From assembly GCA_947460345.1 (NCBI GenBank), contig CANHGM010000001.1:106518-170517 (forward strand): DNA of 64,000 nucleotides. Direction: 5' to 3'. The notes under the pieces were generated by a model, which made no database searches, had not been told where the DNA came from, and worked only from the letters and a program-made list of their open reading frames with translations. A program made the translations under genes and the position numbers. Source of the stretch: Bacteroidota bacterium. Its GTDB lineage: Bacteria > Bacteroidota > Bacteroidia > UKL13-3. Positions 3,872 to 9,767 of the stretch are shown here, in pieces (the first letter of the stretch is position 1; each line of letters begins with the position of its first letter).

Positions 3872-3879
3872 TACTTTTG
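3872..3879 (+). promoter_or_regulatory. Candidate -7 box of the B12 operon
   Basis: TACTTTTG matches the Bacteroidota -7 consensus TAnnTTTG and lies about 45 bases before the conserved riboswitch core, a plausible distance for the start of the leader RNA. No convincing -33 TTG is seen. Confidence 0.45.
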
Positions 3880-3922
3880 TGGTGCATTAAGGTTTAAGTA
3901 TAACACTCAAATTTATACTTAA

Positions 3923-4075
3923 TTAAAAGGGAATCATGTGAGAATCATGAACACTACCCGGTGCTGTAAGTCTCGAAAGAAGATTAATATTTTGGCCACT
4001 TTTCTGAAAAGATTGGGAAGGCGTTAATCGGAGACAAGTCAGAAGACCTGCCCTACTGCAACACACATGAAAGCT
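3923..4075 (+). promoter_or_regulatory. Cobalamin riboswitch
   Basis: The conserved core of the cobalamin riboswitch family is legible: AAAAGGGAATCATGTGAGAA, then ACTACCCGGTGCTGTAAGTC, then a variable arm, then the B12 box AGTCAGAAGACCTGCC at 4037-4052. The order and spacing match the class. A short hairpin (AGCTTT/AAAGCT, about 4072-4092) follows and no T tract is evident, so control is more probably at translation than by termination, although 80 bases separate it from the btuB start. Family knowledge says adenosyl- or other cobalamins bind and reduce expression of the downstream uptake genes. Confidence 0.93.
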
Positions 4076-4154
4076 TTCGGGAAAAAAAGCTAAAATGCAA
4101 TTTAACAGTTTTCTGTATTTGCTTTTATTACCCTTTTGCTATATATGTACCTAA

Positions 4155-6029
4155 ATGAAATATATATATATCATACTCATCCAACTGCTGCCAGTTTATA
4201 TTTGGAGTCAAACAGATACTACTCACAGTTCTGAGTTGGAAGAGTTTATATTGAAAAGTGGGCATAACAAAAACTATAACGAAGGTAAAAATTCAATCAA
4301 AATTGATAAAAACTATAGAGAAGTTTATCAAACACAAAATACTTCAGAGCAACTTTCATTACTACTACCTATATATATAAAAAACTATGGAAATAATATG
4401 TCGGCTGGCATATCTATGAGAGGAACAGGAAGTGAACATACAGCGGTGAACTGGAATGGCATAAACATAAACAACCCCATGTTGGGAGTGGCTTCATTTT
4501 CATCGCTCTTTTTAAACTTATCAGATCAATTATATATACAACCAGGAGGTAATAGTGCAACGGGCGGTTCGGGAGCTATAGGAGGAAGTATAAATTTAGA
4601 TGATGAAATTTATTTAACCAACACAAAAATTTTACAACATAAAACTGCACTAGCCGGCGGTAGTTTTAACAATCAATATATACAATCGCAATTAAGAATT
4701 TTGACGCACAAGTTTTCAAATGATTTTAAAATATTATACAACTCTACCACTAATAATTTTGACTATATAGACCCTCAAACTTCTACAGAAACGAGGAAGA
4801 TAAATGAAAACAGTGGGTATAAAAGTTTAAATTTAAAATGGAATTGTGCAGTTAAAATAACGAAAAAAATCACATTCAAATCATATCATTGGCTAGAGCT
4901 TTCACAAAGACATTTACAACAAGGAATTGGCACTATTTATAGTAATCAATTACAAGAAGATAAAAACTATAAAGGAATAGCACAATTAGATTATAAGTAT
5001 TCAAAGAAAAGTTTGTTAACGATTAAAACTGCCTACATCATTGACCATATGAACTATAGTTCGTTTTATCTTAGCAGCAACAACTATATAAATAGATGGA
5101 TTATAGACCTAACGCATATATATAATTTTTCGGATAGATTGAGTATAAAATCAGGAGTAATTAATCAATATTATATATTACCCAACAAACATTTTCAAGA
5201 AAACAGAGTAGATGCTTATGTATATACAAAATATATGATAAGAAAATATTTTACAGTAAATGCTAATGTGAGACAACCAATGGTAGACCAAGATATAAAG
5301 CCAACTTGTTTTGATTTAGGATATAAAAAAGTTTTTAATATTAACTCAAAAAACGCCTTAGCACTTTCGCAAGCATATAATAGAAACTATAGATTGCCAA
5401 CACTAAACGAACGTTTTTGGGTACCGGGTGGAAAAGTATCATTATTACCTGAGTTAAGCAACGGAATAGAAAGCACTTTAAAACACACGTATAATACAAC
5501 AAAAAGTAGCCAAATGTTATCAGCTACCGTATATACCAACAAAGTGAATAATTGGATTCAATGGGTGCCAACCAATACAGGTTTTTGGGAAGCTAGTAAT
5601 GCCATGCAAGTTGTAACTAATGGTATAGAAGTGTTTGAAGAAATATATACTAAATACAAAAACGTAGAATACGGTTTTAAAGTAAACTATATATACAACT
5701 ACTCGACCAACAAAGTAATAAAGAAACAATTGATATATACCCCATACAATATTTTTAATATAACTGCAACTATAAAATACCAGCAATGGTATGCTATATT
5801 TAACTATCACTACACTGGATTTAGATATACAAGTACTGACAATAGCTTTTGGCTGCCGTCATATACGCTTATAAATGCATCTATACAGAAGTCATTTTTG
5901 TATAGAAATCATATATATACCACATCAATAGTATGTAACAATATATTAAACAGTCAATATCAAACTATTGAAAACTTTGCTATGCCAGGAAGGTCATTAC
6001 TCATTAAAATTCAATTTTCAAACAAATAA
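4155..6029 (+). CDS. btuB: TonB-dependent vitamin B12 receptor BtuB
   Basis: 624 residues, close to the size of known BtuB proteins. A signal peptide (cleaved near IWSQT) is followed by a plug domain with LSLLLPIYIKNYGNNM, MRGTGSEHTAVNWNGININN and a glycine-rich GGNSATGGSGAIGGSI segment, then a beta-barrel with alternating aromatic strands ending in LLIKIQFSNK. The typical TBDR last aromatic residue is near the end. Substrate assignment rests on the riboswitch directly upstream and the BtuG-like and DUF4465 partners downstream. It would move cobalamin across the outer membrane using TonB-ExbBD energy; those components and the BtuCDF transporter are not in the window. First gene of a tight four-gene unit (4-base gap to the next). 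Confidence 0.9.
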   Translation: MKYIYIILIQLLPVYIWSQTDTTHSSELEEFILKSGHNKNYNEGKNSIKIDKNYREVYQTQNTSEQLSLLLPIYIKNYGNNMSAGISMRGTGSEHTAVNWNGININNPMLGVASFSSLFLNLSDQLYIQPGGNSATGGSGAIGGSINLDDEIYLTNTKILQHKTALAGGSFNNQYIQSQLRILTHKFSNDFKILYNSTTNNFDYIDPQTSTETRKINENSGYKSLNLKWNCAVKITKKITFKSYHWLELSQRHLQQGIGTIYSNQLQEDKNYKGIAQLDYKYSKKSLLTIKTAYIIDHMNYSSFYLSSNNYINRWIIDLTHIYNFSDRLSIKSGVINQYYILPNKHFQENRVDAYVYTKYMIRKYFTVNANVRQPMVDQDIKPTCFDLGYKKVFNINSKNALALSQAYNRNYRLPTLNERFWVPGGKVSLLPELSNGIESTLKHTYNTTKSSQMLSATVYTNKVNNWIQWVPTNTGFWEASNAMQVVTNGIEVFEEIYTKYKNVEYGFKVNYIYNYSTNKVIKKQLIYTPYNIFNITATIKYQQWYAIFNYHYTGFRYTSTDNSFWLPSYTLINASIQKSFLYRNHIYTTSIVCNNILNSQYQTIENFAMPGRSLLIKIQFSNK

Positions 6030-6033
6030 TCAT

Positions 6034-7017
6034 ATGAAAAAAATCAATACACTTTTAATAATAGCCCTAGGGTTATTTTTGACAAACACCACTAAAGCAC
6101 AAACTACAAGTGACTTTGAAAACATTACTTTAAAAACTAATAGCTATTGGAATGGAAGTGATTATAGCAAAGGATTTACCTCAGGAAATGCAAAGTTTAA
6201 TAATATATATGATTCAGCTTTTGGAGGCAGCTGGGGAAGCTGGTCAGTTAGCAATATGAAAGACTCAGTAACAGCTGGGTATATGAATCAATACAGTGTA
6301 TGCAATGGCATGGGCTATAATTCATCAAACTACGCAGTTGCATACTACAGCAATTATACGCCAAACCCCACCATAGTGTTAACAGGAGCTGCATCAGGAA
6401 AAACAGTGGCTGGATGTTGGATTAACAATTCTACCTATGCTTATATGGATATGAAAAATGGAACACCTAGTGTTTCAAAAAAGTTTGGAGGTGTAAACGG
6501 AACCGATGCTGACTATTTTAAACTAAGAGCTATAGGATATTTAGGAGGAAAAGAGATTTTGAAAAAAGTAGATTTGATGTTAGCTGATTTCACTTCATCA
6601 GACAGTACAAAAGATTATATACTTAAAAACTGGACATGGTTAGATTTATCGGTATTAGGAAATATTGACAGTGTACAATTTACTATGGAATCTACTGACA
6701 CTGGCTCGTTTGGTATCAATACACCTACTTATTTCTGTATGGACAATTTTACAACCAATAATACTGCATTATCAATATCAGAAAATAGCATCCACGCTTT
6801 ATATATGTATCCAAATCCAGCATCAAATGTACTATCTGTGAGTGAATATGGAGAAAAAGCAACAATATCTATACTTGATATGACAGGAAAATATATCATT
6901 GCTAACAACATTATGCTTTCAAACAGCATTGATATTTCAGCAATGAATAGTGGAGTATATATCATTCAAATTTCTAAAAACGATATAGTATATACTGCTA
7001 AATTTGTGAAGGAATAA
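6034..7017 (+). CDS. DUF4465 surface protein with T9SS tail, B12 locus
   Basis: 327 residues from ATG 6034; the longer frame begins inside btuB and lacks a signal peptide at its start. The N-terminus MKKINTLLIIALGLF...KAQ is a signal peptide. The body has the DUF4465 pattern: SDFENITL, then GGSWGSWSVSNMKDS, MNQYSVCNGMGYNSSNYAVA, and YFKLRAIGYLGGKE. The last 75 residues are a T9SS type A tail (YMYPNPASNVLSVSEYG ... GVYIIQISKNDIVYTAKFVK). DUF4465 proteins recurrently sit beside BtuB in Bacteroidota and at least some B12-binding surface proteins (BtuH type) are, as I recall, structurally related, so a cobalamin-binding role is likely but inferred. Co-transcribed and riboswitch-controlled. Confidence 0.82.
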   Translation: MKKINTLLIIALGLFLTNTTKAQTTSDFENITLKTNSYWNGSDYSKGFTSGNAKFNNIYDSAFGGSWGSWSVSNMKDSVTAGYMNQYSVCNGMGYNSSNYAVAYYSNYTPNPTIVLTGAASGKTVAGCWINNSTYAYMDMKNGTPSVSKKFGGVNGTDADYFKLRAIGYLGGKEILKKVDLMLADFTSSDSTKDYILKNWTWLDLSVLGNIDSVQFTMESTDTGSFGINTPTYFCMDNFTTNNTALSISENSIHALYMYPNPASNVLSVSEYGEKATISILDMTGKYIIANNIMLSNSIDISAMNSGVYIIQISKNDIVYTAKFVKE

Positions 7018-7023
7018 ATAGGT

Positions 7024-7974
7024 ATGGTTTATAGATTAATCTTTGTTTTTATATGTATGCAACTTGTAGTCAAAGCACAATTTGCTCCAGCAGCAGGTAT
7101 TGTTGGTACAACTGCTATTGCAGCAGACAGCAGTATTGTTAAGTATTGGGCAAGCAGTTGTATAATAAAACGAGGTTGGCAAGATATATCAGATACTTTA
7201 TTGGGTTTAACAAGTGCAGGAGATGATAGTTTTGCACTAGGAAAAGCAATGTATAACCCAACTGTTTCGCTTGGCGATGGTGGATATGCCATAGTACAGT
7301 TTCCATATATGATTACAAATAATAACGGTTACGACTTTGTTGTTTTTGAAAATGCATTTATTGATTCATTTTTAGAATTAGCATTTGTTGAAGTAAGTTC
7401 TGATGGTATAAATTTTTTTAGATTTAACAGCATTTGCAACACAGACACATTGATTCAATTAAGCAATGCAGGATTGACAGATGCTACTAAGCTAAACAAC
7501 CTTGCAGGCAAATACAAGGTTGGATTTGGAGTTCCATTTGATTTAGAAGAATTGAAAGGGCAGCCAGGTTTGGATATTGAAAGAATAACACATGTAAAAA
7601 TAATTGATGTGATTGGATCCATCGACCCCCAATATGGCACAAGAGATAGTAGAGGGCATACCATAAATGACCCTTGGCCTACACCTTTTGCATCAGGTGG
7701 ATTTGATTTAGATGCAGTTGGGGTAATTCATGGATATATAAATACAGGATTAAGTCATACCTCATCTAATACTTTGAGTATATTTCCTAATCCTGCACAA
7801 TCATATATATATATTGAACATTCAAATCATTTAAACCAAGTAGCTATAAGTAACATGTTAGGTGAGTCATGGATTAAAAATATAGACCATGGAACTGTAT
7901 CAATTGAAGATTTGAGAGAAGGTATATATATAATATCTGTGGCTAATCAAAATTTCAAGCTAATAAAGAACTGA
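7024..7974 (+). CDS. Surface protein of B12 loci with T9SS tail
   Basis: 316 residues with signal peptide (LIFVFICMQLVVKAQ). The mature part starts FAPAAGIVGTTAIAADSS and contains SLGDGGYAIVQFPYMI, YDFVVFENAF and LELAFVEVSSDGINFFRF, a pattern I recognise in uncharacterised cell-surface proteins encoded with BtuB in Bacteroidota; late residues GGFDLDAVGVIHGY close the domain. The final 75 residues (LSIFPNPAQSYIYIEHS ... EGIYIISVANQNFKLIKN) form a T9SS sorting tail. It begins 6 bases after the previous gene and its stop overlaps the next start as ATGA, so translation is probably coupled. Function is unproven; by context it helps bind or hand over corrinoids at the surface. Confidence 0.78.
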   Translation: MVYRLIFVFICMQLVVKAQFAPAAGIVGTTAIAADSSIVKYWASSCIIKRGWQDISDTLLGLTSAGDDSFALGKAMYNPTVSLGDGGYAIVQFPYMITNNNGYDFVVFENAFIDSFLELAFVEVSSDGINFFRFNSICNTDTLIQLSNAGLTDATKLNNLAGKYKVGFGVPFDLEELKGQPGLDIERITHVKIIDVIGSIDPQYGTRDSRGHTINDPWPTPFASGGFDLDAVGVIHGYINTGLSHTSSNTLSIFPNPAQSYIYIEHSNHLNQVAISNMLGESWIKNIDHGTVSIEDLREGIYIISVANQNFKLIKN

Positions 7975-8993
7975 TGAGATATTGGGCGATTATTTTCTTT
8001 TTTATAATGGGTTGCAAAAAACCTCCTGAAAAGGTTGTAGAGCCAGATCTGTTAAAAAAGAAAGGCAATGTTTTGATACTAAATGAAGGCTTGTTTCAAT
8101 GGGGTCAATCCGAATTATCAATATATAATAAATACACTAAAGAAACAGCAAATAATTTATACAAACTATATAATAATGCTAAGCTAGGTGATGTGCTTCA
8201 AAGTGTGACAGAATGGAATAACAGATTGTATTTAGTCATCAACAATTCAGGTAAGATAGTAGTTGTAGACAAACAGAATCTAACATACATAAACACCATA
8301 GATGGTTTGAAAAGTCCTAGAAAAATTGCTATATATCAAAACCAAAAAGCATTTATTACTGACTTGTATTCGAATGGAGTATCGGTATATGACTTATTAA
8401 CACAAAAAATTACCAATAAAATTGCAATCAATAGTTGGACAGAAGATTTAATGATACTTAACAATCAAATTTATATAACAGCACCCAAAAGTAAATATGT
8501 ATATATAATAGATGGATCAAAAGAAAAGGTGATAGATAGTATTGAAACATTATATGGAGGACAATCTTTTCAGATAGACAAAAATGGGTATATATGGGAA
8601 GCATGTATGGGCGATAGTACTTTAGGATTTGCAGCAGGATTGGTTAAAATAAATGCAAGCAACCATACTGTAGAACAAAGAATTGAATTCAAAAACAAGA
8701 ATGAATCTGCCTCTAGGTTATGTGTAAATAAAGACCGTTCAAAGTTGTTTTATATAAACAAACATATATACTCTATAGATCCGCAAACATTTGAAATTAA
8801 ATTAGAGTTCAATGGAAACAACAAACAACTGTATGGTTTAAATTGTGATAGTGAAACAGACGAACTTTATATAGCTGATGCAGTTGATTATTTGAGTTCA
8901 GGCACCATATACAGAATGCAGCCAAATCTATCGCAAGTTAGTGATACTTTTAAAGTTGGAATAATCCCCAATGGGTTTTATTTTTTTAAGTAG
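7974..8993 (+). CDS. BtuG-like beta-propeller lipoprotein
   Basis: 339 residues. The N-terminus MRYWAIIFFFIMGCKK has a lipobox with Cys14, so it is a lipoprotein, unlike the two T9SS proteins before it. The rest is a YncE/DUF5074-type propeller: NVLILNEGLF, LYLVINNSGKIVVVDKQNL, KIAIYQNQKAFITDLYSNGV, QIYITAPKSKYVYIID and ELYIADAVDYLSSGTIYRM are successive blades. BtuG of Bacteroides is a seven-bladed surface propeller that binds cobalamin very tightly and caps BtuB; position and fold make this a likely counterpart. Start ATG 7974 overlaps the preceding TGA. Cofactor-contact residues cannot be checked by eye. Confidence 0.82.
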   Translation: MRYWAIIFFFIMGCKKPPEKVVEPDLLKKKGNVLILNEGLFQWGQSELSIYNKYTKETANNLYKLYNNAKLGDVLQSVTEWNNRLYLVINNSGKIVVVDKQNLTYINTIDGLKSPRKIAIYQNQKAFITDLYSNGVSVYDLLTQKITNKIAINSWTEDLMILNNQIYITAPKSKYVYIIDGSKEKVIDSIETLYGGQSFQIDKNGYIWEACMGDSTLGFAAGLVKINASNHTVEQRIEFKNKNESASRLCVNKDRSKLFYINKHIYSIDPQTFEIKLEFNGNNKQLYGLNCDSETDELYIADAVDYLSSGTIYRMQPNLSQVSDTFKVGIIPNGFYFFK

Positions 8994-9000
8994 TTTTATA

Positions 9001-9008
9001 TATTTTTG
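9001..9008 (+). promoter_or_regulatory. Candidate -7 box before the AlkD-like gene
   Basis: TATTTTTG fits TAnnTTTG and ends three bases before the ATG at 9012, so a transcript from it would be leaderless or nearly so. The gene could equally be read from the B12 operon. Confidence 0.4.
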
Positions 9009-9011
9009 CTG

Positions 9012-9767
9012 ATGATGACAGATAGAGATTTTTTAGAGACATGCCACATAGAAGTTGAAAGCTTGTTTTCAAAATATCCAGAATATATAGCATTAGATTC
9101 ATTCAACCTAAAATCATATATAGGAACACAGCTTCATTTAAAAGGTTTAAAAATACCAGATGCACGAAAGATATTTGCTGATGGATTCAGCTTTTCAACC
9201 CTACAATTAAACAAACAAATTTATATATGGGATTATATTTGGCATCAAACAGATGTGTTTGAAATAAAGTCTTTAGCTTTGTTTTTTTTGGATAAAAACT
9301 ATTCAAAAGTTGATGCCCTATTATTATGGGATACTATTAAGCAATGGACTTCAAGTATAGACAATTGGGCACATAGCGATGGACTTTCAAAAATATATAG
9401 TCATATGCTTGAGCTAATAGGCAAGAACGTATATACTCAACTTGAAAAATGGAATACCTCTTCAAACCCATGGGAGAGAAGGCAATCTATAGTATCATTG
9501 TTATATTATAGAAGAAACAGAAAAGTATTTTTAGCATTTGAAGAATATATCATTTTGATTGACGCATTGCTAACAGACAAAGACTACTATGTTCAAAAAG
9601 GAATTGGGTGGACACTTAGAGAACTTCTTCAACAATATGAATCTGAAACTTTTGAATATATAATGGCACATGCACATTTGATTACATCAACTGCATACTA
9701 TGCTACTGCAGAGAAAATGACTAACACGCAAAAAGAACAATTTAAATTGTTAAGAAAGAAAAATTAA
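9012..9767 (+). CDS. AlkD-like DNA alkylation repair protein
   Basis: 251 residues, all helical in character (HEAT-like repeats), the size of the AlkD glycosylase family. Family signatures read here are DNWAHSDGLSKIY, NPWERRQSIVSLLYY and DKDYYVQKGIGWTLREL; the conserved Trp and Asp residues used by AlkD to embrace alkylated DNA appear to be kept. The role would be excision of bulky or cationic N3/N7-alkylpurines in the cytoplasm. Start chosen at the first ATG (9012); a second ATG follows directly. It lies 18 bases after the BtuG-like gene but has no functional link to B12 that I can name. Confidence 0.82.
   Translation: MMTDRDFLETCHIEVESLFSKYPEYIALDSFNLKSYIGTQLHLKGLKIPDARKIFADGFSFSTLQLNKQIYIWDYIWHQTDVFEIKSLALFFLDKNYSKVDALLLWDTIKQWTSSIDNWAHSDGLSKIYSHMLELIGKNVYTQLEKWNTSSNPWERRQSIVSLLYYRRNRKVFLAFEEYIILIDALLTDKDYYVQKGIGWTLRELLQQYESETFEYIMAHAHLITSTAYYATAEKMTNTQKEQFKLLRKKN

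Follow-up and report, generated by a model that had tools for sequence, protein, structure and literature searches.

How does a bacterium that exports proteins by type IX secretion (T9SS) organize the capture of corrinoids at its surface, and what is the unnamed protein encoded in the middle of its B12 locus? The question is raised by an operon in a stretch of 64,000 nucleotides from a Bacteroidota bacterium (GenBank contig CANHGM010000001.1), here called the window; all coordinates are counted from its first nucleotide. An initial annotation, made from the sequence alone, had read the operon as a B12 unit with three helper proteins. What is new is the second of these helpers, here called P3: judged from its sequence, it is a widespread, unnamed, T9SS-tailed and riboswitch-linked remote relative of BtuH, while the part concerning DUF4465 has been published.

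A likely corrinoid uptake operon

The operon opens with a cobalamin riboswitch aptamer (RF00174; 3873..4069, + strand; cmscan 96.2 bits, E 9.9e-23, gathering score 31.5), the only RF00174 copy found in the 3.0-Mb genome. Behind it lie four genes on the same strand, encoding BtuB (4155..6029), a DUF4465 helper (6034..7017), P3 (7024..7974) and a BtuG-like protein (7974..8993), spaced by a 4-nt gap, a 6-nt gap and a 1-nt overlap; a riboswitch heading a four-gene B12 unit, as originally proposed, is thus confirmed. The first gene encodes a TonB-dependent corrinoid transporter of the BtuB type: the TonB plug is matched (Plug, PF07715, 6.4e-9), and its closest PDB relatives are Bacteroides BtuB proteins (8p97_A, 9.3e-31). 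The last encodes a beta-propeller (DUF5074, PF16819, 3.5e-20) with BtuG as its best PDB match (8p97_B, 5e-36 over residues 11-336). Its N terminus, MRYWAIIFFFIMGC, contains a lipobox (IMGC, Cys at 8013-8015), while the DUF4465 protein and P3 have ordinary signal peptides without one; as the sole lipobox bearer among the three helpers, the propeller alone is predicted to be lipid-anchored, in keeping with the initial annotation. The lipobox Cys is followed by KKPPEKVVEPD; the acidic run after the Cys, present in the BtuH lipoproteins of relatives, is absent.

From these sequence features, the locus is likely to serve corrinoid uptake across the outer membrane, as an operon of the Bacteroidota BtuBG type under the control of a cobalamin riboswitch; its overall plan is ordinary. 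The layout, T9SS-tailed helpers included, is not peculiar to the source lineage, and the module recurs across Bacteroidota. About 20 nt downstream of btuG, on the same strand, lies a DNA alkylation repair (AlkD-like) gene (9006-9767), which is probably a chance neighbor and possibly co-transcribed with btuG.

The source genome encodes a B12-dependent methionine synthase and B12 domains of the methylmalonyl-CoA mutase type, and a search of the same genome for CobS found none; B12-dependent enzymes without CobS fit a corrinoid consumer. A FecCD (BtuC-type) permease, present in 13 of 14 control genomes, was not found in the source genome either. A DUF6580 protein is encoded there in a single copy (L230, C3:119343-119855). 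In relatives, this membrane protein is found beside P3 or between btuB and the DUF4465 gene (L069, L085, L086, L165, L174), once directly behind a cobalamin riboswitch. By this placement, and with no FecCD/BtuC permease found in the source genome, DUF6580 may be the inner-membrane corrinoid importer, and we treat it as a candidate only.

The DUF4465 helper

The first helper (6034..7017, + strand) carries a Sec signal peptide and a DUF4465 domain (PF14717, 7e-49; 167 bits against a cut-off of 25), and its PDB matches are D5EK51 (9hmu, 1e-20) and BtuJ1 (9fct, 2.4e-20), making it a BtuJ-type protein. Its residues 258-327 (6805..7014, + strand) form a T9SS type A sorting tail (TIGR04183, 52.5 bits, cut-off 23). 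We take the entry IPR026444 to be the T9SS tail. Juodeikis et al. (2025) recorded IPR026444 in 229 and IPR013424 in 88 of 824 DUF4465 members, terming them C-terminal extracellular targeting motifs (PMC12751083), and Clarke et al. (2026) described B12 binding by eight divergent members, one of them a Fluviicola taffensis protein (PMC13398666). With the tail counts and the B12 binding of the family both in print (PMC12751083, PMC13398666), the idea of a T9SS tail on a DUF4465 protein is not new. The window protein shares its domain with the published DUF4465 (IPR027828) proteins that bear C-terminal sorting domains, shows no essential difference from them and is one further member (PMC12751083, PMC13398666).

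The binding study names tyrosines of the DE helix and the HI loop (PMC13398666). Both are retained in the window protein, as Y135 in the DE helix and as Y233 within the HI-loop motif NTPTYF. Of the 34 DUF4465 proteins collected around P3, 19 carry Phe at the HI-loop position and 14 carry Tyr; across the whole family, Tyr accounts for 97% (PMC13398666). By analogy with the family, we infer that the window DUF4465 protein binds corrinoids.

Sorting tails and anchors

The second helper, P3, also ends in a T9SS type A sorting tail (residues 253-316; 7780..7971, + strand; TIGR04183, 31.9 bits, cut-off 23), and the initial claim that two of the three helpers are tailed therefore holds. But how much meaning should be attached to these tails? 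The source genome encodes the T9SS machinery, with SprA at 2452 bits and a PorU-type sortase at 1215 bits, and about 140 type A tails in its 3.0 Mb. T9SS export is thus a general route in this bacterium, and finding a pair of tailed proteins within a single operon is no surprise in itself. What is more informative is how the anchor is conserved within each family: the TIGR04183 tail is found in 67/67 tested P3 proteins and 31/34 sampled DUF4465 proteins, while a strict lipobox, by our own pattern, is present in 33/42 BtuG proteins and most of the remaining nine have a near-lipobox. The type of anchor therefore follows the protein family.

Species of one genus add another side to this picture. 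In genus g6, three genomes (G021, G154, G174) encode a T9SS-tailed P3 beside btuB and a lipobox-bearing btuG (L087, L084, L083), and four others (G206, G245, G379, G387) a lipobox-bearing BtuH (L222, L223, L218, L224). Since P3 and BtuH alternate within this genus, either anchor is used by related binding domains in close relatives, and the sequences suggest that the type of anchor is exchangeable between such domains. The tails could accordingly be read as a habit of a lineage that routes most of its non-lipoprotein surface proteins via T9SS, devoid of functional meaning. We regard this reading as evenly poised: the roughly 140 tails and the use of either tailed P3 or lipoprotein BtuH within one genus speak for it, but a mere habit sits poorly with an anchor that tracks the protein family, tailed in P3 and DUF4465 and lipobox-bearing in BtuG. 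The earlier proposal of a different surface-attachment route in this lineage thus stands only in part. The tails are real and the machinery is present, but the route is not specific to the lineage, given the published DUF4465 tails (PMC12751083) and the alternation of P3 and BtuH. From their sequences, surface display would be expected for both the window DUF4465 protein and P3.

P3 as a distant BtuH relative

What, then, is P3? The protein (7024..7974, + strand) starts with a Sec signal peptide and has no family name: a Pfam scan gave its C-terminal tail as the sole match, and phmmer against the PDB matched the T9SS tail and no other part of the protein. Because a full-length search across the phylum was swamped by T9SS tails, later P3 searches used the tail-less domain. 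A profile of this domain (A1) matched one PDB sequence, BtuG1 (8blw_B), inside the H-domain at residues 431-497 (E 8e-6); this H-domain is homologous to BtuH2 (PMC10404256). Over 395 Bacteroidota genomes, the weak tier of the A1 search comprised 13 matches, BtuH-like or OmpA-fused. Ten of the 13 are BtuH domains, eight in separate lipobox-bearing proteins and two fused to BtuG, and a cobalamin riboswitch lies near 8/10 of these BtuH proteins. In a profile-profile comparison, hhalign aligned P3 with the BtuH set at a probability of 95.5% and an E-value of 1.5e-8, over only 58 columns. The initial annotation had called P3 a B12-locus surface protein and left its identity aside; the link to B12 loci stands, and the identity can now be narrowed to a remote BtuH relative by the profile match (8e-6) and hhalign (95.5%). 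At three loci (L225, L227, L228), a P3-like domain is fused to an OmpA-type C-terminal domain, and B12 genes were not detected nearby.

The AlphaFold model of the globular domain (7078..7743, + strand) is confident (pLDDT 93.6, pTM 0.92) and predicts a galactose-binding-like fold. A comparison of P3 with BtuG and BtuH folds, as suggested at the outset, has 8blw_B (BtuG1/BtuH) as the best Foldseek match (probability 1.00, E 2.6e-3), but at a TM-score of only 0.49 and with weak E-values throughout. Against BtuH2 itself (7biz) the TM-score is 0.40-0.42, and CBM32 domains score nearby. Two B12-contact residues of BtuH2, Asn399 and Phe401, align to the GNAF/ENAF motif of P3 as N92 and F94, which are kept in 67/67 and 66/67 P3 proteins, respectively. 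A possible counterpart of BtuH2 Gln333 is Q in 35/67 P3 proteins and Ile in the window protein, and the remaining contacts, including Tyr510, Trp511 and His476, have no alignable counterpart. With one segment aligning and a TM-score <0.5, we rejected P3 as a plain BtuH orthologue. By sequence and model it is instead a distant BtuH relative and, in function, a putative member of that family.

A second family also came into view: NCBIfam NF033170 (LIC_13355 family lipoprotein, Leptospira) matches 36/36 tested P3 domains, the best at 1.7e-13, and the window P3 (7081-7737) reaches 20.6 bits where the cut-off is 120. LIC_13355 has been described only as a binder of laminin and plasminogen, with B12 unmentioned (PMC11891782).

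Genomic contexts of P3

P3 homologues are present in 56 of the 64 genomes of the source order. At 48/80 named genome loci btuB is found in the P3 neighborhood, at 13 of the 80 the gene order of the window recurs exactly, and at three loci (L128, L135, L169) DUF4465 and P3 are fused. The 32 P3 loci without btuB-type neighbors provide an independent view. Scanning 23 of these 32 for cobalamin riboswitches (277 kb) revealed one on the same strand directly upstream of the stand-alone P3 gene in 13/23; with the one per 3.0 Mb of the source genome as background, chance alone would give about 0.1 in 277 kb. At L069 P3 adjoins the CobT and CobS genes, and at L085 the order is riboswitch, DUF6580 gene, P3. 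These independent contexts, read from sequence, link P3 to corrinoids more firmly than the single operon does. Two loci (L062, L064) share one series of small lipoprotein and cytochrome-c-like genes behind the riboswitch-led stand-alone P3, with a PSCyt1 match in L062.

Does P3 itself bind corrinoids? It could instead be a partner of another kind: it might dock DUF4465 close to BtuBG, have a vesicle-related role like the one reported for BtuL, or bind glycans at the surface, its fold being CBM32-like. CBM32-like folds match nearly as well as the BtuH domain, which allows for another ligand; Foldseek finds discoidin domains too, and the BtuH alignment is restricted to one segment. There is also a precedent in B. 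theta, where BtuL and BtuK2 showed no B12 binding; BtuL, a B12-locus lipoprotein, was reported as a non-binder (PMC12751083). However, riboswitch-led stand-alone P3 genes without btuB neighbors fit self-sufficient corrinoid handling, the weak tier of profile matches is mostly BtuH, and N92 and F94 match BtuH2 Asn399 and Phe401. We therefore consider a P3 that does not bind corrinoids rather unlikely. With moderate confidence, we favor P3 as the founder of an unnamed, phylum-wide family of T9SS-exported corrinoid binders distantly related to BtuH, which would work with DUF4465, at times fused to it, and alone under a riboswitch of their own. Such proteins would constitute a parallel set of non-lipoprotein binders in T9SS-bearing Bacteroidota. 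In the literature searched, we found no report combining BtuH with type IX secretion.

A model of uptake and its place among known systems

We propose the following model. When corrinoids are scarce, the riboswitch would permit expression of the operon. The BtuJ-type jellyroll DUF4465 protein and P3 would cross the outer membrane via T9SS, after which the PorU sortase would anchor them or they would be released. Both would catch corrinoid and hand it to the BtuG lid, from which it would be loaded into BtuB and imported by the action of TonB. In this scheme, the T9SS tail would stand in for the lipid anchor of BtuJ and BtuH in gut Bacteroides, while BtuG, which docks on BtuB, would remain lipid-anchored. 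As an account of the whole, from riboswitch, BtuB and BtuG lid to the two T9SS-tailed helpers, we hold this model with considerable, if not full, confidence.

If correct, the model extends the picture of lipoprotein-assisted B12 capture in gut Bacteroides to environmental, T9SS-bearing Bacteroidota, and it makes the P3 family a widespread and directly testable candidate corrinoid binder. Leptospira LIC_13355, so far studied for host binding, gains a possible nutrient-related relative: its family is matched by P3 domains, but the window P3 stays well under the cut-off, and the known role of LIC_13355 is the binding of host molecules (PMC11891782). With the BtuH domain, as in BtuH2 (7biz) and the BtuG1 H-domain (8blw), P3 shares the B12-locus context, the [G/E]NAF motif and the predicted galactose-binding-like fold, but it is shorter and carries a T9SS tail. 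Finally, compared with the B12 loci of Bacteroides thetaiotaomicron (PMC10404256, PMC8941943, PMC12751083), the window has in common the cobalamin riboswitch, BtuB, the BtuG lid, a DUF4465/BtuJ protein and a BtuH-related protein. In contrast to that organism, where BtuJ and BtuH are lipoproteins, the counterparts in the window are T9SS-tailed, and P3 is only remotely related to BtuH.
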